A stretch of DNA of 64,000 bases from Haloarchaeobius salinus (GTDB taxonomy: Archaea; Halobacteriota; Halobacteria; Halobacteriales; Natrialbaceae), in assembly GCF_024464185.1 (NCBI RefSeq), contig NZ_JANHAU010000001.1, forward strand, positions 434,001 through 498,000. The letters run 5' to 3'. This document shows, one piece after another, positions 2,069-48,891 of this stretch. Every line of letters begins with the position of its first letter. Positions within the stretch are counted from its first letter, which is position 1. The notes under the pieces are model-generated. The model was not told where the DNA came from. It saw only the letters and a program-made list of their open reading frames with translations, and ran no database searches. Both the position numbers and the translations under genes were made by a program.

Positions 2069-3034
2069 TTACTGACCCAGTTCGACGCCGAGTGCGTCGA
2101 TGACGTTCTGGACGGGCTGGTAGTCTTCGACCGAACCCTCCGCGAGGCCGGTGAACCAGAGTTCCGCCTCCGCGTCCTCGTCGATCAGGTCGGACTCCTC
2201 GGCCGCCAGCAGGGCGTCGACACAGCGGCTCTTGACGTCGTCGTCGAGGCCCGAACGGATGAGGATGGGTGCACGGGGGATCGGGTCGGAGCAGCTGAGC
2301 AGCCGCAGCTCCTGCTCGTCGGTCGCGCTCCCGGCGTTGTCCCACTCCGCGGAGACCTCCTCGAACTGGGAGGGGAACTGGTCCTTGGGGACGTGGGCCG
2401 CGGTGGAGAACGCTCCGGTCCCGGCGGCGGCGACCTCGGACCGGTTGATGAGCGTCTCGCGAGCGGTGGAGTGGTCGGACCACTGGCCGGTGAAGTCCTC
2501 GGGCTCACCCTCGGGCGCACCGCCGGTGTCGAGACCGGCATCGTTCAGCATGTACAGCGGGAACAGCGAGCCGCTGGTCGACAGCGAGTCGGCGAAGGCG
2601 ATCGTCTCGCCCTCGAGGTCGGTGAGCTCCTCGATGTCGCTATCCGGCAGGGTCGTGATGAGCGAGAAGTACCGGGATGCACCGTAAGCGATGCGGATAC
2701 CGGCGACCTCGGCGATGTCCTGCTCGCCGGCCTGGAGCGCGATGGCCGGTGCCGCGTCCGCGATGTCCGACTGGTCGCTGTCGAGTGCCTGTAGGACCGC
2801 CGCGTAGTCCGCGGCGACGGTGGACTCGATGGTCACGTCGGCCTCGGACTCGAGGTAGTCGAACATCGGCTGATACTGCGTCTGAATGTCCACGTCGGAC
2901 TCCGCCGGAGTCAGCGTGAACGTGATCGTATTAGAACTGCCACCACCGAAGCTCCCGATGCATCCCGAGAGCCCGGCGATTCCGGCTGTTCCCACTGCAC
3001 CAGTTGCTTTGAGGAAGCTGCGTCGACTTTCCAT
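2069..3034 (-). CDS. phnD: Phosphonate-type ABC transporter substrate-binding lipoprotein PhnD
   Basis: Extracellular solute receptor of the importer and first gene of the phnDCE operon. The N-terminus carries a twin-arginine signal (MESRRSFLKATG) and a lipobox LSGC with Cys25, so the protein is probably exported folded by Tat and lipid-anchored. The mature 296-residue part has PhnD family features: PAESDVDIQTQYQPMFDYLE near the start and the SGSLFPLYML region that lines the ligand site. It is followed by phnC after 74 bases. The upstream region holds a TATA-like box and tandem palindromes (separate entries). Confidence 0.92.
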   Translation of the reverse strand: MESRRSFLKATGAVGTAGIAGLSGCIGSFGGGSSNTITFTLTPAESDVDIQTQYQPMFDYLESEADVTIESTVAADYAAVLQALDSDQSDIADAAPAIALQAGEQDIAEVAGIRIAYGASRYFSLITTLPDSDIEELTDLEGETIAFADSLSTSGSLFPLYMLNDAGLDTGGAPEGEPEDFTGQWSDHSTARETLINRSEVAAAGTGAFSTAAHVPKDQFPSQFEEVSAEWDNAGSATDEQELRLLSCSDPIPRAPILIRSGLDDDVKSRCVDALLAAEESDLIDEDAEAELWFTGLAEGSVEDYQPVQNVIDALGVELGQ

Positions 3035-3385
3035 TGCGAATCAATTCAAAGTTCTTGATATCGCTATTAAAAGTTCCTAATCTATCTACGTAGAACTACG
3101 TAGACCACAGGATCAACGGGTCTACACGCGCTGTTACGGGTTGGATGCCCGCAGTCAGTCGATTCCTGTTATTGGATGAGCGACACAAACTCGATAGACG
3201 GGAGCGGCCTGTTTCGAGCAGCCGGCTGTTCGGAAGCAACTCCTCGTGTCTATGTAGACCGACGTTCCTAATCACCGTCACCCCGCGCCGGAAAATCAGC
3301 ATCGGGCCGGACAGAATCGAACGGCGGTGTGGCGAGCGTGACCGCAACGGAAACGCACTTGCGCGCCGGGGCAGTACCCGTTCAC
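3035..3385. other. Intergenic region between phnD and hisH (promoters and palindromes)
   Basis: These 351 bases separate two divergent genes. The phnD side carries a TATA-like box (CTTTTAATAG on the minus strand, about 3064-3073), about 30-35 bases from the phnD ATG. Just upstream of it are two copies of the octamer CTACGTAG. A related CTATGTAGACC occurs at 3250-3260. The hisH side has no convincing TATA box that I can single out. No coding frame with haloarchaeal composition is visible. Confidence 0.6.
3085..3104. promoter_or_regulatory. Tandem palindromic octamers upstream of phnD (putative operator)
   Basis: CTACGTAG at 3086-3093 and again at 3096-3103, separated by AA. Each octamer is self-complementary, and the whole 20-base block TCTACGTAGAACTACGTAGA is a palindrome apart from the central pair. 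It lies about 12 bases upstream of the phnD TATA-like box, a usual place for an archaeal activator site. The bound protein is unknown; a phosphate-responsive regulator is an inference from the operon's substrate class. Confidence 0.5.
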
Positions 3386-4048
3386 ATGAGCACGCAGTCG
3401 CACTCACGCGAGCAGGAGACGCTCGCCGACGTCGTCGTCGTCGATTACGGGCTTGGGAACCTCCGGAGCGTCTCGCGCGGGATCGAACGCGCCGGCGCGT
3501 CGGTCAGTATCGACAGCGACCCCGAAGCGTTCGCCGAGGCGGACGGCGTCGTCCTCCCGGGCGTCGGCGCGTTCGGCGAGGGGATGGAGAACGCCGAGTC
3601 GGTGCGGGACGCGCTCGTCGAGGTGGCCGAGTCCGACACGCCGCTCTTTGGCATCTGTCTCGGAATGCAGATGCTCCTGACGGAGAGCGAGGAGGCGGAG
3701 CGCGAGGGCCAGGGCGACGTGAAGGGCCTGGACCTGATCCCGGGCCGCAACGTCCGGTTCGAGGCGGGCCAGACGGTCCCCCACATGGGCTGGAACGACC
3801 TCTCGGTGCAGCGCGAGCACCCCCTCGTCGAGGGCATCGACGGCCGCTACGCGTACTTCGTCCACTCCTACTACGCCGTCCCCGACGACGAGGGCGCGGT
3901 CGTCGCGACGACGGACTACGGCGTCGAGTTCCCCGCCATCGTCGCCAACGACGACGGCACCGTCTTCGGCACGCAGTTCCACCCCGAGAAGTCCGGCGAG
4001 ACCGGGCTGACGATACTGCGGAACTTCGTCGAGCTCTGTGCGGAGTAA
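3386..4048 (+). CDS. hisH: Imidazole glycerol phosphate synthase, glutaminase subunit HisH
   Basis: Glutamine amidotransferase half of the HisF-HisH enzyme, which makes imidazole glycerol phosphate in histidine biosynthesis. The 220-residue protein begins with an acidic ~13-residue extension, then VVVDYGLGNLRSV. It has the oxyanion strand GVGAFGEGM, the nucleophile elbow FGICLGMQ with catalytic Cys, and the His-x-Glu pair in TQFHPEKSG. I chose the ATG at 3386 (MSTQSH), because the in-frame GTG at 3329 adds only non-conserved residues. The gene stands alone here with no other his gene in the window, as is common in haloarchaea. Confidence 0.95.
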   Translation: MSTQSHSREQETLADVVVVDYGLGNLRSVSRGIERAGASVSIDSDPEAFAEADGVVLPGVGAFGEGMENAESVRDALVEVAESDTPLFGICLGMQMLLTESEEAEREGQGDVKGLDLIPGRNVRFEAGQTVPHMGWNDLSVQREHPLVEGIDGRYAYFVHSYYAVPDDEGAVVATTDYGVEFPAIVANDDGTVFGTQFHPEKSGETGLTILRNFVELCAE

Positions 4049-4103
4049 CCGGCACTGGACGTGGGTCGACTGACCTGCCAGCCACTGGCATTCCACATGT
4101 AGC

Positions 4104-4159
4104 TACGCCGAAATGGCTCGCGCCGTGAATGACGACTGATGTCCTCCGGTTTCGGCGTA
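4104..4159. repeat. 10-base perfect inverted repeat downstream of hisH
   Basis: TACGCCGAAA at 4104-4113 and its exact complement TTTCGGCGTA at 4150-4159, with a 36-base spacer, begin 55 bases after the hisH stop. This could be a transcript-stabilising hairpin or the remnant of a small element. There is no T-run directly after it, so it is not a typical terminator. Confidence 0.4.
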
Positions 4160-4289
4160 TGTACTCCCGTCACCCCACGTCTGTCGGCCGTAGCGGTCCC
4201 GAACGGGCGCTTCTCGGAGTCGACGTTTCCGGATTACGGGTACCCATCGACCAAAAGAATAATCACATGGAAACGTTCATCTCTGGACA

Positions 4290-6509
4290 ATGTCTCTCGA
4301 AGATGAACGACGGCGGTCGATACTGTTGGCCGGTGCAACGGCGCTGACCGGCGGGCTCGCCGGGTGTACGGGGCTCCTCGAAGAAGCAGCCCCCGAGGAC
4401 GGGACCGAGAACGGGACTGCGACGTCGACACCGACGGCTGCTCCGACGACGACTGCGGAACCCATCGACCTCCCCGTCGAGGGCGAGGCGACGCGCATCG
4501 AGTACGGTGCGACCGTCTCGGGTGAGCTCACGGCCGACACACCCTCGGACCCCCAGTTCGAGGGCCACTACGAGCCCTACACGTTCGTGGGCTCGGCCGG
4601 CGACATCGTGCACATCTCGATGAACTCCCCGGGCGGCGACACCTACCTCTACCTGCTCGACGAGCAGGGGAACGTCCTCGAGGAGAACGACGACGATGCA
4701 ACCAGCCTCAACTCCGCTATCACCGGGTTCGAGCTCCCGTCCGACGGCGGCTACGTCATCCTCGCGGCGAGCTTCAGCGACACCATCGACTTCGCGTACG
4801 AACTCTCGCTCACACAGGTGCGGAGCGACCTGCGCTCCATCGCCGTCGGGGAGACCCGGACGGGGGTCATCGACAGCAGCGACCCACAGAGCAGTCAGTT
4901 CAACGGCTACTACGAACCGGTCACGCTCGAGGTCGGGAGCGAGATGTCGGTGAACGTCTCGATGTCCTCCGTGGACGGCGATACCTACCTCTACATCCTC
5001 GACCCGGACGACAACGTCATCGGGGAGAACGACGACTTCAGCGGCCTCGACTCGTTACTCCTCAACTTCACCCTCCCCGAGGCAGGGGAGTACACCATCG
5101 TCGCGGCGAGCTTCGAGCCTGAAGGGACGTTCACCTACGAGCTCTCCGTCACCGACGCGACCGCGACGCAGTCCATCTCCGTCGGCGAGACCATCGAGGG
5201 CGAGCTCAGCAGCGACGACGGCCAGCTCCCGGCGCTCAACGGCTACCACGACTTCATCGACCTCGACGTCGACAGCGACGTCACGGTCGACATCGAGATG
5301 AGCTCCTCGGGTGGCGACACCCTCCTCGCGGTCCTCGATGCGAGCGGAACCGTCGTCGCGGCCAGCAACAGCCGCAACGCCGGTATCCCGCAGCTCTCGG
5401 TCCCTGCGAACAGCGACTACACCATCGTCGCAACCAGCTTCGATCCGACCGCGACGTTCGCGTACGAGCTGTCGGTCACCGAGAGTGAGTCGCTGCCGGA
5501 CCTGCGTTCCATCTCCGTCGGGGAGACGCGCACCGGCGGTATCGACACGAGCGACCCCCGCGAGAGTCGGTTCAACGGCTACTACGAGCCCGTCACGCTC
5601 GACGCACCCACCGGCACCACGGTGGACATCTCGATGAGCTCCGCGAACGGCGACACCTACCTCTACGTCCTCGACCCGAGCGGAACTGTCGTCGCTCAGA
5701 ACGACGACCACGACGGTCTCGACTCCCGTGTCTCACGGCTCACGCTCTCCGAGAGCGGCGACTACACCATCATCGCCACCAGTTTCTCCGAGGAGGGGAC
5801 TTTCGAGTACGAGCTCTCCGTCACGGAGGGGTCGGACCTGACGCCCACGCAGTCGATCGCGCCCGGCGAGACGCTGACCAGCGAACTGGACCCGAACGAT
5901 CCTCAGAGCGACCGGTTCAACGGCTACTACGAGCCCATCGCGCTCGACGCGCCGACCGGCAGCACGGTGAACATCTCGATGAGCTCCGACGACGACACCT
6001 ACCTCTACCTGCTCGGCCCCGACGGGCAGGTCGTCGCCCAGAACGACGACTACAACGGCCTCGACTCGCGGATATCGTCGTTCACGCTCTCGGAGACCGG
6101 CGAGTACACCATCATCGCCACCAGCTTCGACTCGGGTGCGACGTTCGAGTACGAGCTCTCCGTCGCCGAACTGGACGGCGACCTCCGGTCCATCTCCGTC
6201 GGCGAGACCCGTACCGGTGTCCTCGATACGAGCGACCCTCGTGAATCCCGGTTCAACGGCTACTACGAGCCCGTCACGCTCACCATCGACAGCGCGACGA
6301 CCGTCGACATCGAGATGACCTCGGCCGACGACACGTACCTCTACCTGCTCGGCCCGAACGACCAGATCATCGCGGAGAACGACGACTACAGCGGTCTCGA
6401 CTCCGCCATCGTCGACATCCCGCTCGACCCCGGCGAGTACACCATCATCGCGACGAGCTTCTCGGCCAGCGCGACGTTCGAGTACCAGCTCTCGGTCAGG
6501 CAGGCCTAG
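4290..6509 (+). CDS. Tat lipoprotein with six tandem PPC-type beta-sandwich repeats
   Basis: The 739-residue product starts with a Tat-like signal (DERRRSILLAGATALTGG) and a lipobox LAGC with Cys26. A Thr/Ala/Glu-rich linker to about residue 62 follows. The rest is six repeats of about 105-110 residues, at roughly 69-174, 181-288, 293-396, 404-511, 518-625 and 631-736. Each has the pattern VGET.TG, FNGYYEPVTL, GDTYLYLLD, ENDD..GLDS, EYTIIATSF and FEYELSV, which resembles the bacterial pre-peptidase C-terminal (PPC) fold. Repeat 3 is the most diverged and lacks the acidic NDD turn. No enzymatic domain is present, so a cell-surface binding or structural role is inferred. A TATA-like AAAAGAATAATC at ~4253 suggests a nearly leaderless transcript. 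Confidence 0.8.
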   Translation: MSLEDERRRSILLAGATALTGGLAGCTGLLEEAAPEDGTENGTATSTPTAAPTTTAEPIDLPVEGEATRIEYGATVSGELTADTPSDPQFEGHYEPYTFVGSAGDIVHISMNSPGGDTYLYLLDEQGNVLEENDDDATSLNSAITGFELPSDGGYVILAASFSDTIDFAYELSLTQVRSDLRSIAVGETRTGVIDSSDPQSSQFNGYYEPVTLEVGSEMSVNVSMSSVDGDTYLYILDPDDNVIGENDDFSGLDSLLLNFTLPEAGEYTIVAASFEPEGTFTYELSVTDATATQSISVGETIEGELSSDDGQLPALNGYHDFIDLDVDSDVTVDIEMSSSGGDTLLAVLDASGTVVAASNSRNAGIPQLSVPANSDYTIVATSFDPTATFAYELSVTESESLPDLRSISVGETRTGGIDTSDPRESRFNGYYEPVTLDAPTGTTVDISMSSANGDTYLYVLDPSGTVVAQNDDHDGLDSRVSRLTLSESGDYTIIATSFSEEGTFEYELSVTEGSDLTPTQSIAPGETLTSELDPNDPQSDRFNGYYEPIALDAPTGSTVNISMSSDDDTYLYLLGPDGQVVAQNDDYNGLDSRISSFTLSETGEYTIIATSFDSGATFEYELSVAELDGDLRSISVGETRTGVLDTSDPRESRFNGYYEPVTLTIDSATTVDIEMTSADDTYLYLLGPNDQIIAENDDYSGLDSAIVDIPLDPGEYTIIATSFSASATFEYQLSVRQA

Positions 6510-41391: not shown

Positions 41392-42449
41392 ATCGTGACC
41401 AGCTCCGCTTCGATCTCCTCCTCGCTCAGTCCCGCTTCCTTGCCGCGTGCGATGGCGCGGATGTTGTCGGTCTCCCGCTCCTTCGTGATGATGTACGCGA
41501 GGACCGGGGTGATCGATATCGGGAACGAGTTCGAGAATTGGTCCGCGTACTCGGTCAGTGCCGCGTCGAGCGCGTTCTCGAACCCGATGAGGCTCTCGGC
41601 CCCCTCGAGCTCGTTGAGCGCAGCCGACAGGTCGTCGCCGTACGTGCTGTCGCGGATGCGTGCGACCAGCTCGTCGGTGTTGGTGACCAGCTGGGTCAGC
41701 TCGTCGGCGTCGAACAGCCGACCGCCCTCGATGAAGTACTCCGCGGGGTCGATGTCGGCCCCGCTGCGCGAGAGCCGGAGCGCGTTCCGGACGTTCCGGA
41801 AGTCGATCTCCGCCTGGAGGAACTCCAGGTAGAGTGCGGCCGGGCTGTCGACGTCGTTCACCGTCCCGACCTCGTCGAGCAGGTGCTCGTAGAACGCACG
41901 GTCGACGGCGTTCTCGAGCGGGACGAGGATGTCCAGCTCCAGATACTGGTCCAGCGCCTCGTCGAGCCCGGGGCCGAAGATGGTCCCCGAGCACGCTTCG
42001 ACGATGGCCTCGATGTCCTGCACCTCGAGGAGCTGGCCGAGGAACTCGTCGTCGAACTCCCCGGCCTGGATGAGGTCGGCCTCGATCTCCTCGCGTTTCG
42101 AGCCGGCGTACACGCCCCGAAGGATCGTCTTCAGGTTCCACGCGTCGAACTTGCGCAGGTACGCCGCGAGCTGGTCGTACAGCTGGCCGCCCGACCAGTC
42201 GAGGATGTCCTCGAAGTGCTTCGCGAGGTTGCGGTTCAGGGCGTACTCGATGAGGTCGACGCCACTGTAGCGGGCTCCGAGTGCGTTCATCTCGGTCTCG
42301 TACTCGGACTCCTCCATGTAGCGGGCGATCTCACCGGTCCCCATGCGGACGAGCTTGCGGTAGTCCTCGTCGTCGTAGAGCTTCGCACGACGCGCTCTGA
42401 CCCGGGCGTTGACGTACTCCGGATTGGAACCGCTGTCGCTCTTGTTCAT
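41388..42449 (-). CDS. atpC: A-type ATP synthase subunit C
   Basis: A funnel-shaped helical subunit (353 residues) linking the rotating proteolipid ring to the central stalk. Recognisable stretches are YVNARVRARRAKLYDDEDYRKLV near the start and YALNRNLAKHFEDIL. The C-terminal part includes ITPVLAYIITKERETDNIRAIARGKE, close to the C/AC39 signature. The ATG at 42449 overlaps the atpE stop by 4 bases; the longer open frame is rejected because it covers atpE. Confidence 0.95.
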   Translation of the reverse strand: MNKSDSGSNPEYVNARVRARRAKLYDDEDYRKLVRMGTGEIARYMEESEYETEMNALGARYSGVDLIEYALNRNLAKHFEDILDWSGGQLYDQLAAYLRKFDAWNLKTILRGVYAGSKREEIEADLIQAGEFDDEFLGQLLEVQDIEAIVEACSGTIFGPGLDEALDQYLELDILVPLENAVDRAFYEHLLDEVGTVNDVDSPAALYLEFLQAEIDFRNVRNALRLSRSGADIDPAEYFIEGGRLFDADELTQLVTNTDELVARIRDSTYGDDLSAALNELEGAESLIGFENALDAALTEYADQFSNSFPISITPVLAYIITKERETDNIRAIARGKEAGLSEEEIEAELVTI

Positions 42450-43030
42450 TGCTCGTCGAACAGTCGGGTGCTGATTTCCTTGAGTTCGTCCTCCCAGACG
42501 TCCTCGACAACCGAGTCGAACGTGTTGTTGACCCGGAGGCGGCTCTTCTCGCTCTCGACGACCACGCCGCCGAGGCAGTCGTACTCGCCGGCCCACTCGT
42601 AGCCGTCGTAGTCGGCGAGGATCTCCTCGACGAGCTCCTGGTCGTCGGCGCGACCGTGGACGAGGACGCTGGCCGCGTCGTCGAACTCGTCGGCCGCGTC
42701 GTCGAGCAGCGCGCGGGTCAGCTCCTCGCGGTCCTCGCCGTCGAGGTCGACGATGGCCTCCTCGACGGCGTCGCGGACCGACTCGAGCACGTCCCGGCGC
42801 GCCTCGAGACGCATCTGCTTGGCCTCGAGTTTCGCGCTGGACAGCTCGCGTTCGCGTTCCTGTGCCACGTTCCGTTCCGCCCGGCGCTTTGCCTCCTCCA
42901 GGGTCTCCTCGGCGTCCGCCTCCGCCGCCTCGACGAGCGACTCGGCCTCCGCCTCGCCCTCTTCGCGGATTTCCTCCGCACGCGCGCGGGCTTCCTCTCG
43001 TATGTCCTCAACGACTGTTTCCAAGGTCAT
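42446..43030 (-). CDS. atpE: A-type ATP synthase subunit E
   Basis: Peripheral-stalk subunit that pairs with H and holds the head still. The 194-residue protein has an N-terminal coiled coil of Glu/Ala/Arg (residues 1-~90, e.g. AEEIREEGEAEAESLVEAAE) and a C-terminal globular part with YDCLGGVVVESEKSRLRVNNTFDSV, the family signature. It is 19 bases after atpK and overlaps atpC by 4 bases. Confidence 0.95.
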   Translation of the reverse strand: MTLETVVEDIREEARARAEEIREEGEAEAESLVEAAEADAEETLEEAKRRAERNVAQERERELSSAKLEAKQMRLEARRDVLESVRDAVEEAIVDLDGEDREELTRALLDDAADEFDDAASVLVHGRADDQELVEEILADYDGYEWAGEYDCLGGVVVESEKSRLRVNNTFDSVVEDVWEDELKEISTRLFDEQ

Positions 43031-43049
43031 TGTAAGAAGGGGGAACGGT

Positions 43050-43328
43050 TTAGACGAAGAGCGCGACGAGCGCGAAGATCGCCAGGGTCTCCGGCAGGAC
43101 CGTCAGGAAGACGGCGATACCTGTGCTGATGGAGTCCTCGGCGAGTGCGCCGACGGCGGCTGCGCCGATACCACGCTCGGCGTAGCCCGCGCCGATGGCT
43201 GCGAGCCCGATACCGAGTGCTGCACCGGAGCCCTCCGGAATGGCCGGTGCGTTGCCCTGCATGTACGTGGACGCGAAGTCGGTTACGCTGTTCAGTGCTG
43301 TCGTGCCGATGTCAAGAGCTTCGAACAT
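43050..43328 (-). CDS. atpK: A-type ATP synthase proteolipid subunit K
   Basis: Membrane rotor subunit that carries ions. The 92-residue protein has two hydrophobic helices, at about 36-62 and 68-92. The ion-binding carboxylate is Glu80 in TVLPETLAIFALV. There is a single hairpin of two helices, so many copies are needed per ring. The first ~30 residues are probably processed or form a short leader. It follows atpI after 180 bases that contain a hairpin and promoter-like box (separate entries). Confidence 0.95.
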   Translation of the reverse strand: MFEALDIGTTALNSVTDFASTYMQGNAPAIPEGSGAALGIGLAAIGAGYAERGIGAAAVGALAEDSISTGIAVFLTVLPETLAIFALVALFV

Positions 43329-43373
43329 ATGTGTGTACCTCTAACCGGACATGCGGTATTCCCCGTAGTGGCT

Positions 43374-43382
43374 TCATAAAAC
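43374..43382 (-). promoter_or_regulatory. Internal TATA-like box upstream of atpK
   Basis: Minus-strand GTTTTATGA lies about 50 bases upstream of the atpK ATG, which predicts a leader of about 25 bases. A further T-rich, TATA-like stretch (AAGTATAAACC, minus strand, near 43438-43448) is upstream. An own promoter would allow extra proteolipid synthesis. Confidence 0.45.
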
Positions 43383-43395
43383 TTCCCAAAATAAC

Positions 43396-43409
43396 CGGCT
43401 GTCAAGCCG
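43396..43409 (-). terminator. Terminator-like hairpin between atpI and atpK
   Basis: Minus strand: CGGCT TGAC AGCCG, a perfect 5-base stem with a 4-base loop, followed within two bases by TTATTTT. It could terminate or attenuate transcripts from atpH-atpI about 100 bases after the atpI stop, just before the internal promoter for atpK. The short stem makes this tentative. Confidence 0.4.
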
Positions 43410-43508
43410 TCTAAACGCTATATGGCGGGTTGAAGGGGGTTTATACTTTCGATTATATTGCGGCAATCCACGCCGAACGACAGGAAGAATCGTGAAGGAA
43501 TGCCGAGG

Positions 43509-45698
43509 TCAGTCCTCAGTCGTGAACTCCCGTTCGTAGCCGAAGGGGTCGAACGCGCGCCCCTCGCCGTCGTAGAACTTGTCGAAGAACTCGACGTACT
43601 CGAGACGGACCCCCTGCAGGCCGGCGCTGGTGATGCCGAGCAGGAGCACGGCGATGTGGCCGACGACGAACACGAGGATGCCGACGAGCGCCATCGCGAT
43701 ACCACCGTGGAGCAGGCCGCCGAACATGATCTCGGTGACCTCGTAGTGGTGGTACTCGATGCCGGTCCCGCTCGGCATGCCGCCGGTCCCGAAGTGCCAG
43801 CCGCCCTTCGCATCGACCCACGCCCCGAAGAAGAGCAGGTTGACGACGAACGCCATCCCCGCCTTCGCCAGCAGCACGGCCGCGAGCCGGAAGTACGAGA
43901 GCACGTTGACGAGGACGTTCACGCTCTCGAGCGGGCCGACCACGAGGCCGGGTGCGCCCATGTGCTGGAACTCGCCGTAGGTCATCACGACGAGACCGAG
44001 GGCGAACATCCCGAGGCCGGCGAACGCAGCGACCTCCGGCATGCCGGTGTAGCCGAGATCGTAGGCCGCGTTCGGGCCGCCGAGCGTGGTGAACATGAAG
44101 TCGGGCTTGATCCCGCGACCCGCCGTGCTGAGGATGGCGAGCCAGAGCCCGAGCATCATCACGAGCCACGAGAGGTCGTCGTAGAGGACCTCCTCGATGC
44201 CGTGGCTGATGTGGTTGACGACGCCGAAGAAGTACCCCAGCGTCATGTGGGCGAGCCCGGCCAGCACGCTGACGAACAGCCACGTCTGGGCGTACTGGGC
44301 ATACGCGGGCTGGAGCCCCTTGTGCATCGGCGGGTTGCCGTTGAACAGCACGTCGCCGAGGACGTGCAGTCCGAATAACTCACCGTACAGGACACCGAAC
44401 AGCATCGTGAAGCCACCGGCCCACATGCCGATACCGCCGAGGGCGCGGATGGCGTCGCTGTCGAACCGGCTGTACATGTAGAAGCCGGCAACGGTGTAGA
44501 GGATACCGTAGCCGAGGTCACCGATCATGAACCCGAAGAACGCCGGGAACGTGAGCATGATGAAGAACGTCGGGTCGAGCTCGTCGTAGCTCGGCAGTCC
44601 GACCATCTTCGTCAGGAGCTCGAACGGCTCGGCGGGCTCCGAGTTGTCCATCATCGTCGGCGGCGCGTCGTTCATCGTGACGACGCCACCGTCGGTCGCG
44701 GCCGCCTTCCCGGAGCCCTCGCCCTCGGGGGAGACGTGCTCGGTGTCGGTCGCGTGGCCCTCGCGGTACTTCGCGCGCTCGATCTCGTCGACGTCGACGC
44801 GGTTCCCGACCGCGTCGGAGAGCTCGGCCTTCAGGTGGTCGACCTGGTCGGTCGGGATCCAGCCCTCGGCGACGAACGCGCTCTCGGTCGTCGCGAACTG
44901 GAGCGGTGCCTCGGACTTCTGGACGTCGATGGTCAGTCGCTCCTCGGCGGCCAGCAGGAAGCCGGCGGCGTCGAGACGCAGGTCGCCGATCTCGTCCTCG
45001 ATGGTCGAGAGCTTCGACTCGAGCTGCTGCCTGCGGTGCCGGAGCTCGTCGATGTACTCCGCGGCGTCGCCCTCGGCGTCCGGGACGTCCGTCCGCGTGA
45101 AGCTCGCCTGCACGAGCAGGTCGTCGAGGATGCTCTCGCGTGCGTTGGACTCGGGGTAGGCGAAGACGGCGACGAGTTCGTCACCGGTCTCGATGTCGAA
45201 CGAGCGGATCGCCTTCGAGTCGTCGAGAACGCGCTGCACGGCGGCCTGATCGCCCTGGCCGACGGCGACGTGCAGGGTGTCGTAGCCCGAGAGCAGGTCG
45301 AGCGGGACGCCGAGCGTGGTGAACGGCTCGACCTCGTCGATCTCCTCTTCGACCTCGCGGAGCTCCGATTCGATCTCGTTGCGGCGGTCGTCGAGCTCGT
45401 TGGCCTCGGTGCGGATCTCCTCGAGCTCCTCGTCGAGCGCCTCGTCGGTGACGATGCGGCTCGGGCCGGCGTCGTCCCCGTCGACGTCGAGGATGCTCTC
45501 GAGCGAGCGGACCGTCACGAGCTTCTCGGACGCGTCGTCGGCGTCCGAACGGGGCGTCCCGTTGTCGAACCCCTCCCAGGAGCCGTCGTAGTCGCTCAGG
45601 TGGACCCGGTTGAGGTCGTGTACCGTCTCGATGACCGGGTCCATGACCGCCTTGGACCCCGTCACCGAGACCTTGCTCATCTGCTCAGGTCTGAGCAT
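43509..45698 (-). CDS. atpI: A-type ATP synthase subunit I (a-subunit homologue)
   Basis: Membrane stator subunit that forms the ion half-channels with the proteolipid ring. The 729-residue protein has a cytoplasmic N-terminal part (about 1-370) with long coiled coils (EIRTEANELDDRRNEIESEL). About eight membrane helices follow, with MLTFPAFFGFMIGDLGYGI and a long final helix with NVLSYFRLAAVLLA carrying the channel Arg. I took the ATG at 45698 (MLRPEQMSKVSVTGSK), as in relatives; it overlaps the atpH stop by 14 bases. An ATG at 45680 is the alternative. Confidence 0.95.
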   Translation of the reverse strand: MLRPEQMSKVSVTGSKAVMDPVIETVHDLNRVHLSDYDGSWEGFDNGTPRSDADDASEKLVTVRSLESILDVDGDDAGPSRIVTDEALDEELEEIRTEANELDDRRNEIESELREVEEEIDEVEPFTTLGVPLDLLSGYDTLHVAVGQGDQAAVQRVLDDSKAIRSFDIETGDELVAVFAYPESNARESILDDLLVQASFTRTDVPDAEGDAAEYIDELRHRRQQLESKLSTIEDEIGDLRLDAAGFLLAAEERLTIDVQKSEAPLQFATTESAFVAEGWIPTDQVDHLKAELSDAVGNRVDVDEIERAKYREGHATDTEHVSPEGEGSGKAAATDGGVVTMNDAPPTMMDNSEPAEPFELLTKMVGLPSYDELDPTFFIMLTFPAFFGFMIGDLGYGILYTVAGFYMYSRFDSDAIRALGGIGMWAGGFTMLFGVLYGELFGLHVLGDVLFNGNPPMHKGLQPAYAQYAQTWLFVSVLAGLAHMTLGYFFGVVNHISHGIEEVLYDDLSWLVMMLGLWLAILSTAGRGIKPDFMFTTLGGPNAAYDLGYTGMPEVAAFAGLGMFALGLVVMTYGEFQHMGAPGLVVGPLESVNVLVNVLSYFRLAAVLLAKAGMAFVVNLLFFGAWVDAKGGWHFGTGGMPSGTGIEYHHYEVTEIMFGGLLHGGIAMALVGILVFVVGHIAVLLLGITSAGLQGVRLEYVEFFDKFYDGEGRAFDPFGYEREFTTED

Positions 45699-46017
45699 GT
45701 ACCTCCTCCTGGAAGGTCTCGAGGACGTACGCGACGACGTCGTCGACGCGACCGTCGGCACGGTCGCGAAGCTCCTCGCGCTCGGCTTCACCCTCCTCGA
45801 GGATCTGCTCGCGTTCCGCCTCGATCTCCTCTCTGGCCGATTCGAGCCGCTGCTCTTCGAGCTCGCGTGCCTCCTCTTCCGCCTCCTGACGGATCTCGTC
45901 GGCGCGCTGTCGAGCCTCGGCGATACGTTCGTCGCGGTCGGCCTCCGCCTCGGCGACGATCTCGTCGGCCGCTGTCTCGGCCTCCTTTATCTGTTCGAGA
46001 ACCTCTGGCCTCGGCAT
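45685..46017 (-). CDS. atpH: A-type ATP synthase subunit H
   Basis: First gene of the operon: a 110-residue, almost fully coiled-coil peripheral-stalk subunit (MPRPEVLEQIKEAETAADEI, then Glu/Ala/Arg heptads to the end). It pairs with subunit E. The ATG at 46017 lies ~34 bases from the operon TATA box. Confidence 0.93.
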   Translation of the reverse strand: MPRPEVLEQIKEAETAADEIVAEAEADRDERIAEARQRADEIRQEAEEEARELEEQRLESAREEIEAEREQILEEGEAEREELRDRADGRVDDVVAYVLETFQEEVHAQT

Positions 46018-46140: not shown

Positions 46141-46935
46141 ATGGGTATCCTCGAAAACAAGGCGCGGGCGCGCCTGTTCTACAAGTATCTCTCGAAGGTG
46201 TACGACACCATCAACCCGTTCATCTGGAACGAGGAGATGCGCACCGAGGCCATCGGGATGCTGGACATCCAGCCGGGCGACCGTATCCTCGACGTCGGCT
46301 GTGGCACCGGCTTCGCGACGGAGGGGCTGCTCGCCCACGAGAACGTCGAGGAGGTCTGGGCGCTCGACCAGTCGCCACACCAGCTCGGGAAGGCGTACGC
46401 GAAGTTCGGCCGCACCGGCCCCGTCCACTTCCACATGGGGGACGCCGAACGGCTCCCGTTCGCGACCGACAGCTTCGACATCATCTGGTCCTCGGGCTCC
46501 ATCGAGTACTGGCCGAACCCGGTCCGCGCACTCCGGGAGTTCCGACGCGTCGTCAAGCCCGGCGGGCAGATCCTCGTCGTCGGGCCCAACTACCCGAAGA
46601 CGACGGTCATGCAGAAGATCGCCGACGCCATCATGCTGTTCTACGACGAGGAGGAGGCGGACGAGATGTTCCACGCGGCCGGGCTCGAGGACATCAGGCA
46701 TCGACTGATGGGGCCGAGCTACGACCCGGACGTCGCGATCACGACGATTGCACGCGTGCCGGGTGACCCGGAGACCGACGGCACCAGCCCTGCCGAGGAG
46801 ACCGAACCCGACATGGCGGGTGACCGGGACGGCGGCAGCGAGAGCGTCGAACCCGACGACGAAGTCACGCCCGACATGGCGGGTGACCGGGACAGCGGCA
46901 GCGAGAGCATCGAACCCGACGAGGCCGCCGACTGA
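46141..46935 (+). CDS. SAM-dependent methyltransferase, MPBQ/MSBQ-like, with repeat tail
   Basis: A class I methyltransferase of 264 residues. The N-terminus ARLFYKYLSKVYDTINPFIW resembles the plastidial MPBQ/MSBQ (VTE3) methyltransferases, and motif I is DVGCGTG at 51-57. DSFDIIWSSGSIEYW and RVVKPGGQILVVGP follow. Methylation of menaquinone or a related quinone is a fair inference but not proved. After the domain (about residue 205) comes a 60-residue acidic tail with two 21-residue copies of PDMAGDRDxGSESxEPD. The tail overlaps the convergent pilin-like gene by about 217 bases. Confidence 0.82.
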   Translation: MGILENKARARLFYKYLSKVYDTINPFIWNEEMRTEAIGMLDIQPGDRILDVGCGTGFATEGLLAHENVEEVWALDQSPHQLGKAYAKFGRTGPVHFHMGDAERLPFATDSFDIIWSSGSIEYWPNPVRALREFRRVVKPGGQILVVGPNYPKTTVMQKIADAIMLFYDEEEADEMFHAAGLEDIRHRLMGPSYDPDVAITTIARVPGDPETDGTSPAEETEPDMAGDRDGGSESVEPDDEVTPDMAGDRDSGSESIEPDEAAD

Positions 46936-47477
46936 CCGGACCTGTCCTCCCGCAGGGCCGCCGACCGCTGTCCGGTCCGACCCGCCGCGACCGACCGAAC
47001 GCTCGCGACGATGTTTCCTTCGACGACGAGCGTGACGACGACGACGGCCCCGTGAGAGACGACCGGACCGTTCGTCCCCGCGATCGCGAAGCTCGCCGAC
47101 TCGCCCGCCGTCCAGCGCTGGTCGGCCGCCACGTTGAACGGCCCGGTCGGCCCGGAGACGAACCCGCGCGCGGAGAAGAACGGCACGGGTGGCTGCCGGC
47201 GCAGTTCCTCGCCGTCGACCGTGACGACGAGCTCCAGCTCGTCCACGTCGATGGCCTCGCCGCCGCGGTGCGTGATGGTGACCCGGCCCGTCGACGCGTC
47301 CGCCGTCGCGTCGAACGTCGCCTGCGGTGGTGCCGTCTGCTCGGTCGCGAGGTCGAGCGCGCCGACGGCGACGACGCTCGACGTGACCACTGTGAGCGCG
47401 AGGAGGAGTGCGATCCCGACGACCGGACTGACGGCACGAGCGGCGAGCACGCCCGGTCTGGGTGCGGCATCCGACAA
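46719..47477 (-). CDS. Archaeal type IV pilin-like protein
   Basis: Up to 252 residues. The N-terminus has the prepilin pattern RAVSPVVGIALLLALTVVTSS: cleavage would precede AVSPVVG, and the hydrophobic helix drives assembly. A beta-rich region (about 50-165; DVDELELVVTVDGEEL) follows. The frame continues without a stop through a Ser-rich tail (SLPLSRSPAMSG repeated) antisense to the methyltransferase gene. The start is uncertain: TTG at 47477, 5 bases after the upstream gene's stop, or GTG at 47450 (MLAARAVSP), which is more like relatives. Likely co-transcribed with the DUF7096-like gene. Confidence 0.6.
   Translation of the reverse strand: MSDAAPRPGVLAARAVSPVVGIALLLALTVVTSSVVAVGALDLATEQTAPPQATFDATADASTGRVTITHRGGEAIDVDELELVVTVDGEELRRQPPVPFFSARGFVSGPTGPFNVAADQRWTAGESASFAIAGTNGPVVSHGAVVVVTLVVEGNIVASVRSVAAGRTGQRSAALREDRSGQSAASSGSMLSLPLSRSPAMSGVTSSSGSTLSLPPSRSPAMSGSVSSAGLVPSVSGSPGTRAIVVIATSGS
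46807..46932. repeat. 63-base direct repeat in the methyltransferase/pilin overlap
   Basis: Two copies begin with CCCGACATGGCGGGTGACCG, at 46807 and 46870, exactly 63 bases apart. They are nearly identical over the first ~52 bases. They keep both frames open: 21-residue units in the methyltransferase tail and SRSPAMSG-containing units on the other strand. Confidence 0.75.
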
Positions 47478-47482
47478 GAAGG

Positions 47483-48727
47483 TCAGGCCGAGACGCTGGC
47501 GTTGGTCGTCGTCTCGGGGGGGTCGATGGGAACGGTGACCGTCCCGTCGGGAGTCCGGACCGTGATGGTGTACGCCGCGGACGGCTGGAGTATCCAGAGG
47601 CTGCCGCCGGACCTGGTCTGCCCGACACGTTTGCCGTCGACCACGACCTCCGCGGAGACGGTGTTGCCGGTGAGGGCGTTCGTCGCGACGACCCTCGCGG
47701 GGCCGCCGTTCGGCGTCAGCTGGACCGACACCGTGGTCCCGTTCTCCGTCTCGGTGAGGCGGCTGCTGCGCGGGAGGTCACTCAGCCGGAGCGACTGGTA
47801 CTCCCGGTAGACGCCCTCGGTGCGGCCGTCGTTGTAGAGCCGGATGTCTCCCTGGTCGTGTGAGTTGACGTAGACGTTCGTGCCGTCGGTCGTCTCGTCG
47901 AGGTCGGCGTCGTAGGTCGTGACGTACGGGTACCGGTCGTTGAGCATGTCGAGGAACGCGTTCAGGCTGAACGTGTTCGGCCCCTCGTCGTAGTTGTCGA
48001 ACCGGATCGCTTCGCGATAGTGGTCGCGGCTGAAGCGCGACTCCGACAGCGCCTGTAGCACGACTCCCTGCGTCGACCCACGGACGTGGACCCGGAACGA
48101 CGTGTCCGCCTGTCCGGTGAACGCGTCACGGATCTGCGCCCGGATCGGTGTCTGGAGTTCGCCCGCCCGACGCCGGAGGTCGTCCGCGTTGAAGTCGGCT
48201 CCGTCTTCCTCGAGCCGTGTCGCTGCTGCCTGGATGGTCGCGGCGCGCGAGTGGACCACGGCGAGGCGGTGCAGCAGTTCGCGCTCCCCGATCTCGCCGT
48301 TCCCGTACGCCAGGAGGACCTCCCACTCCCGGTCTCGCAGTTCGTCGATGGCCCGATTGAGCCGTTCGACCTCCGCGTCCGCGATGGCCCGCCGCTGTGC
48401 CGCGGAGCCGACATGTTCGACGCGGACCGAGAGGTACTCGAAGCGGAGGCCCTGGTCGAGCTCCTGTCCGGTCACCGCGGCGGTGCTCGCGAGGTCAAGT
48501 CCGGGGGAGGAGTACGTCGCGCGGTCGACCGTCGGGAGGTCGAGCCGTCGTGTGGTGTTGTTCGCCTGTATCGTGACGACGGTCCCGGGCGACTCGGCGG
48601 TCGCCGCGGGCGCGTCGTCGGCGTCGTCGGGTGGGAGTGGGGGTGCGCCGCCGCCCACGCCGGCCACCGATGCGACCGGTGCGATGGCGAGGAGGGTGAG
48701 GAGGAGGGCGAGCGTGAGACGCGTCAT
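47483..48727 (-). CDS. Secreted protein of haloarchaeal DUF7096 type
   Basis: A 414-residue exported protein: signal peptide MTRLTLALLLTLLAIAPVAS, then an acidic linker. Next is a helical region (about 85-200; EVERLNRAIDELRDREWEVL), then a beta-rich C-terminal part ending in VRTPDGTVTVPIDPPETTTN. I associate it with the DUF7096 family found near membrane-anchored regulators in haloarchaea; its function is unknown. TATA-like ACTTTTTGTATC (minus strand, ~48752-48763) fits the ATG at 48727. It is divergent from the membrane-anchored HTH gene and directly upstream of the pilin-like gene. Confidence 0.7.
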   Translation of the reverse strand: MTRLTLALLLTLLAIAPVASVAGVGGGAPPLPPDDADDAPAATAESPGTVVTIQANNTTRRLDLPTVDRATYSSPGLDLASTAAVTGQELDQGLRFEYLSVRVEHVGSAAQRRAIADAEVERLNRAIDELRDREWEVLLAYGNGEIGERELLHRLAVVHSRAATIQAAATRLEEDGADFNADDLRRRAGELQTPIRAQIRDAFTGQADTSFRVHVRGSTQGVVLQALSESRFSRDHYREAIRFDNYDEGPNTFSLNAFLDMLNDRYPYVTTYDADLDETTDGTNVYVNSHDQGDIRLYNDGRTEGVYREYQSLRLSDLPRSSRLTETENGTTVSVQLTPNGGPARVVATNALTGNTVSAEVVVDGKRVGQTRSGGSLWILQPSAAYTITVRTPDGTVTVPIDPPETTTNASVSA

Positions 48728-48891
48728 CGCCGGCACGTACACAGTCGGGATACAAAAAGTGGTCGACCTGGATGCTTAGGGACACTCGGCCGACAACGAG
48801 ACGGGAGAACCCATGAGACGTTTCATAACGCCGTCTGACGTTTTATCAGGATGGAAAGCGTTTTTTCCTATGAGCCTCCACGTGCAGTCGT

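Follow-up and report, generated by a model that had tools for sequence, protein, structure and literature searches.

Coding minisatellites are in-frame tandem repeats whose copy number varies. For convergent genes that overlap, the excerpted text of PMC2174442 sets out a stop-codon mutation model and has phase (123:213) becoming commoner as overlaps lengthen, while the excerpt of PMC2478687 classes 124 of 178 convergent overlaps of >60 bp as 3′ extensions, which are treated there as misannotation or sequence error.

The locus analyzed here lies in Haloarchaeobius salinus, within a stretch of 64,000 nt (assembly GCF_024464185.1, contig NZ_JANHAU010000001.1, positions 434,001 to 498,000) that we call the window and to whose first letter all positions below are referred. 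As in the stop-codon mutation model, so far as the excerpt of PMC2174442 describes it, the two genes are convergent, one of them appears to have lost its stop and to read on to the next stop inside its neighbor, and the phase is (123:213). Unlike in that description, the overlap appears also to have grown by an in-frame minisatellite that lengthened both genes at once, and the replacement stop falls repeatedly at conserved Tyr codons of the neighbor. The locus resembles the 3′-extension class, in the form in which the excerpt of PMC2478687 presents it, in that one gene is 3′-longer than its orthologs; it differs from that class in that five species have the extension, which speaks against an error, and in that both genes exceed most of their orthologs. 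Among the titles of the literature matches listed, none concerned this locus or a prokaryotic repeat open on both strands (a weak negative, ten of the listed papers making no mention of Haloarchaeobius).

The gene pair and its two tails

The features of the locus, by position and strand, are as follows.

46141..46935, + strand: SAM-dependent methyltransferase ORF, 264 aa (Pfam Methyltransf_11, 2.7e-25; relatives)
46719..47477, − strand: pilin-like ORF, 252 aa, TTG start (Pfam Pilin_N, 2.4e-17)
46719..46935, both strands: convergent coding overlap, 217 bp, phase (123:213)
46762..46932, + strand: C-terminal methyltransferase tail, acidic (net charge about −35 per 100), 57 aa
46983..47477, − strand: conserved part of the pilin-like protein, 165 aa, N-terminal helix plus beta domain
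46722..46982, − strand: Ser-rich basic pilin tail, 87 aa by alignment (90 by HMM end)
46719..46721, − strand: pilin stop TAG, antisense of methyltransferase codons AGC-TAC (Ser-Tyr of GPSYDPD)
46807..46869, both strands: 63-bp repeat copy 1 (+ strand, PDMAGDRDGGSESVEPDDEVT)
46870..46932, both strands: 63-bp repeat copy 2 (+ strand, PDMAGDRDSGSESIEPDEAAD)

The sequence-only reading had described a 217-bp antisense overlap between a methyltransferase and a convergent pilin-like gene, and the ORF coordinates (46141-46935 on the + strand and 47477-46719 on the − strand) bear it out; the phase is one in which third codon positions lie opposite one another. Judged by family match and conservation, both ORFs are real genes. 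The pilin-like protein scores 64 bits against Pilin_N, above the curated cut-off of 25.2, and its residues 1-176 are matched in 124 of 125 family genomes; with the NCBIfam archaellin/pilin N-terminal model it reached 16.2, below the cut-off of 20. Aligned pilin orthologs end at about 46983, and the ancestral stop would accordingly have been near 46980.

The predicted folds of both proteins end about where the outgroup proteins end. In the methyltransferase model, residues 212-264 have a pLDDT of <50, and the part of the predicted fold that falls within the overlap comprises only about residues 194-211. In the pilin model, the last predicted strand covers residues 155-163, and ten-residue blocks over residues 181-252 have a mean pLDDT of 42-61. 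Both models derive from shallow alignments (25 and 24 rows in all, few reaching the tails), so that low confidence in the tails is partly expected. In composition, the pilin tails of the five overlapping Haloarchaeobius species have a pI of 11.4-12.0, versus 4.4-5.1 for their domains, and a basic tail is as expected from the antisense of Asp/Glu-rich codons. The contrast between basic tail and acidic domain is not general, given that the pilin domains of three pairs outside the genus (L056, L076, and L080) have pI values of 11.3, 6.4, and 10.9.

Several observations concern the surroundings of the pair. A gene for a DUF7096/DUF7094/Fn3_arc protein (47483-48742, − strand) ends 5 bp ahead of the TTG start of the pilin-like gene, a spacing at which the two may be translated jointly. 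Adjoining the methyltransferase on the opposite strand are apparent A-type ATPase genes (42446-46017, − strand), among them V_ATPase_I at 43509-45791 (− strand; 79.4 bits) and an ORF at 45685-46017 (− strand) with sub-cut-off matches only, to ATP synthase and V-ATPase stalk families. Elsewhere in the window, a 345-bp tandem array within a 739-aa ORF (4290-6509, + strand) encodes repeated PPC domains, and the start of this ORF looks like a lipoprotein signal.

Overlap and repeat among the haloarchaea

The pair set consists of loci at which the two genes, each detected with its own HMM, are convergent and within range: 108 rows, many of them duplicates, reduced to 78 unique pairs, of which 72 lie outside Haloarchaeobius. 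A convergent pilin neighbor was present at 59 of 80 methyltransferase loci (the other 21 were dropped), and 30 loci were taken from the 124 genomes matching the pilin-like protein; in row L051, the pilin frame is short and incomplete.

Outside the genus, the median stop-to-stop gap is 44 bp (72 pairs). The gap exceeds 0 in 62 of these pairs, meaning that the orthologs of the extended pilin mostly stop short of the neighboring gene; it is −4 to 0 in 5 pairs, and the remaining 5 overlap by more (29, 55, 55, 133, and 1419 bp), so overlap as such is not unique to Haloarchaeobius. Comparison with relatives had been proposed in the sequence-only reading as the way to find ancestral stop positions, and it is informative: the pilin stop lies 1-4 residues past the domain in 63 of the 72 outside pairs. 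Methyltransferase tails are similarly short there, with 1-3 residues in 61 of 72 pairs and 4-25 in the other 11.

Three of the larger outside overlaps belong to three species of Halarchaeum (L056, L077, and L076), in which the pilin-like gene reads 55, 55, and 133 bp, respectively, into a methyltransferase that has a 3-residue tail and no repeat there. The other two (L078 and L080) are in phases other than (123:213). At L080, from Halomarina halobia, the pilin-like ORF (2236-4230, − strand) continues for 510 stop-free codons past the domain, antisense through the entire methyltransferase and beyond, and either stop loss or a fault in the sequence could account for this long frame. The phase at L080 is the one with the scarcest antisense stops (0.0029 per codon), and because it is almost devoid of them, we do not use this locus as support.

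Within Haloarchaeobius, the methyltransferase carries a tail of 25-99 residues in all six species, and the pilin a tail of 70-132 residues in five of them. Four species bear the 63-bp repeat: in G000, G002, G004, and G003, the copies number 2, 2, 3, and 4, and the overlap spans 217, 217, 280, and 343 bp, respectively. In G005, the genes overlap by 202 bp without the repeat. In G001 there is no overlap; the pilin ends four residues past its domain, and the two stops are 4 bp apart.

In a tree built from the concatenated cores of 24 pairs, the four repeat-bearing species group together (support, 99.9/100), G001 and G005 are sisters (99.9/100), and the genus is separate from the outgroups (98.6/100). 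In the nearest sampled relatives of Haloarchaeobius (L032, L034, and L059), any overlap is no longer than 4 bp, and Halarchaeum, represented in the tree by L056 and L077 only, is placed apart from Haloarchaeobius, although deeper branches are weakly supported; we read the Halarchaeum overlap as an event separate from that in Haloarchaeobius. As G001, without overlap, and G005, with overlap, are sisters, the stop was either lost twice or regained in G001, and comparison by eye of the two sequences at the junction reveals a frame-shifting indel. A further difference at the junction concerns the stretch from the pilin domain to the methyltransferase stop (46936-46982 of the window, − strand), where about 15 additional pilin codons are present in the window species and in G003; these are strongly divergent between the two and are missing in G002 and G004.

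The positions at which the extended pilin frames end are themselves regular. Read on the + strand, the pilin stop of each of the five overlapping Haloarchaeobius species is CTA, formed by a methyltransferase NNC codon followed by TAC; the codon pair encodes Ser-Tyr in four species and Phe-Tyr in G005, whose stop lies further in and whose first Tyr is preceded by GAG. The three Halarchaeum pilin stops are also antisense to NNC-TAC (Ser-Tyr, Thr-Tyr, and Phe-Tyr). At 74 of 84 methyltransferase loci (six from Haloarchaeobius and 78 from elsewhere), the majority of them non-overlapping, the nearest stop on the antisense strand in this phase falls on a Tyr codon (the ten non-Tyr rows include L054, with its broken frame); stop sites of this kind are thus generally available.

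As to the repeat, a 63-base unit encoding PDMAGDRD on one strand and SRSPAMSG on the other had been noticed from the letters alone, and both motifs are present as described. The two window copies are spaced by 63 bases and are identical at 54 of 63 bases, including 51 of the first 54. At its default threshold, Tandem Repeats Finder did not report the 63-bp array; the repeat is nevertheless real rather than a product of chance, since it is present at this locus in four Haloarchaeobius species. The unit corresponds to 21 codons and lacks stops in both coding frames, and because its length is a multiple of three, one copy more or less shifts both tails by 21 residues. With one genome per species, copy numbers over the six species are 0, 0, 2, 2, 3, and 4.

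Similarities among copies, computed from the first 54 bases of each, bear on how these numbers changed. The two window copies are 94% identical, and those of H. iranensis are 98% identical. Those of G003 pair as 1 with 3 (94%) and 2 with 4 (98%), as if a two-copy block had been doubled. The first two copies of G004 share 96% identity, whereas its copy 3 matches the H. iranensis copies at 91 and 93%, versus 87 and 89% for those of its own genome, so two or more copies may be older than that split. The array therefore resembles coding minisatellites in its unit of 3n bases, in a copy number that differs among close relatives, and in the window and H. iranensis copies being closest within their own genomes; it departs from them in being open on both strands and in the position of G004 copy 3. 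A single origin of the repeat in the common ancestor of the four species, followed by changes in copy number, is the simplest history.

A search with a 126-base query lends no support to the repeat being a dispersed element: among the matches listed, strong ones occurred only at this locus, in 4 of 6 genomes, the others covering ≤57 bases at E values of about 4e-5 or worse (about 40 candidates were scored per genome). At the 78 non-Haloarchaeobius loci, the methyltransferase tails showed no repeat in any of the 77 that could be read (L054 being the exception, with an early break from its start position); the DNA repeat search covered the six Haloarchaeobius genomes.

Tests of constraint on the two frames and the open antisense frame

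One rival account, in line with the treatment of 3′ extensions in PMC2478687, is that a sequencing or assembly fault, such as a false indel, hides the pilin stop. The overlap recurs, however, in five Haloarchaeobius genomes with different copy numbers and different junctions; a sequencing error common to five species is unlikely, and we regard an artifact of this kind as extremely improbable.

The sequence-only reading also held that the repeat is what keeps both frames open, a claim that did not survive: composition suffices. In the shared segment, four of the six frames are stop-free when the terminal stop of each gene is allowed. Over 49 window genes, the antisense phase in question is open in 3907 of 15410 sliding 72-codon stretches and over the last 72 codons of 14 of the 49; this null set consists of heuristically called ORFs, with the methyltransferase included and the pilin gene absent, and at least one of its members, the ORF at 42449-43129 that lies antisense to an ATPase gene, is doubtful. 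When the last 70 methyltransferase residues were randomly recoded with synonymous codons, the antisense frame was open in 5000 of 5000 recodings, and the overlap in G005 exists without any repeat. The same phase is open through the methyltransferase tail of G001, where it is left unused by the pilin. An open antisense frame is thus unremarkable here, as composition is sufficient to produce it.

Selection on each frame was assessed by four-way site counting, an idea taken from the literature, in two close species pairs and four between-clade comparisons, with the upstream region, in which the antisense is unused, as the control. In the overlap of the close pairs, methyltransferase-only changes numbered 2, versus 12.7 expected (P ~0.001). 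Pilin-only changes numbered 2.5, versus 1.6 expected, at about 18 weighted opportunities and hence with very low power; the corresponding ratio was 1.55 in the overlap and 1.63 in the control. Codon alignment is uncertain wherever copy numbers differ. Between clades, the methyltransferase-only ratio was 0.76 in the overlap, versus 0.16 in the control, and the pilin-only ratio was 0.92, versus 2.17, the latter comparison being based on 3 changes in pairs that are not independent. Over the first 54 bases of the 11 repeat copies, third positions vary at 12 of 18 sites, compared with 3 of 18 first and 5 of 18 second positions. Constraint on the methyltransferase frame is detectable in the close pairs and weak between clades, and the between-clade pilin ratio could hint at constraint on the second frame.

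That hint is among the points that favor selected dual coding, in which the Ser-rich pilin tail would be functional (for example, as an exposed spacer of a surface protein) and the repeat would be kept as a means of varying both lengths. The overlap has also persisted in five of six species with both frames intact, copy number varies between species, and the antisense SRSPAMS core is almost invariant in the 11 copies, its sole change being to SWSPAMS, in three of them. This core is, however, the complement of the conserved methyltransferase PDMAGD. Moreover, pilin-only changes in the close pairs are not depleted relative to either expectation or control, G001 does without a tail even though the phase lies open there, and a basic tail on an acidic domain, in five species, is what the antisense of an acidic tail predicts. 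We consider selected dual coding unlikely.

Less likely again is that only one tail is made, with the pilin transcript ending inside or before the overlap to leave a non-stop or truncated message. A single terminator-like site at 47198-47181 (− strand), inside the pilin gene and far ahead of its stop, is compatible with such an ending (0.2 expected in shuffles), although it was scored against a bacterial consensus of doubtful relevance to an archaeon; the same scan, of 46400-47500, found no terminator-like site near the two stops. Across five species, the pilin gene is conserved and lacks any other in-frame stop, so it would have to rely on non-stop messages. We regard this account as very improbable.

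Origin of the overlap and its meaning

What is very probably the best reading of the locus is that the pilin-like gene lost its stop codon and that an in-frame minisatellite then lengthened both tails, with the pilin tail being near-neutral. Stop loss and shared duplication had been offered earlier as alternatives; both hold, one after the other, the former in the repeat-free overlap of G005 and the latter in the four species with 2-4 copies. The starting point would have been two old convergent neighbors whose stops lay close together. In Haloarchaeobius, the methyltransferase would have gained a disordered acidic tail, and the stop directly behind the domain of the pilin-like gene would have been lost, probably by substitution or by a small indel. 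The pilin would then have read antisense through the methyltransferase tail, with third codon positions facing, until halted at a conserved methyltransferase Tyr codon which, behind a codon ending in C, presents TAG on the other strand. The 63-bp minisatellite would have formed inside the overlap at a later point, in the common ancestor of the four species (out of six) that carry it. The gene layout, the overlap in five of six species, the differences in copy number, and the state of the outgroups are observed directly; we infer the direction of these changes, the near-neutrality of the pilin tail, and the production of both tails.

A more far-reaching interpretation would treat the minisatellite, translated on both strands, as one switch for two unrelated tails, one on an intracellular acidic enzyme and the other, basic and Ser-rich, on a probably surface-located pilin, with both lengths mattering. 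We think this very unlikely; the locus is a tidy evolutionary series rather than a new kind of system, with the pilin side probably neutral.

As such a series, it offers an unusually well-staged origin of a long antisense overlap: the outgroups represent the likely start, one species has the overlap without the repeat, and four have the repeat at varied lengths. In haloarchaea, overlap of this gene pair seems to have arisen on more than one occasion, namely in Haloarchaeobius, in Halarchaeum, and possibly in two others, and in both named genera conserved tyrosine codons of the enzyme decide where the reading ends. If the pilin tail is made, it illustrates how a surface protein can gain new sequence, predictable in its composition, from antisense reading.
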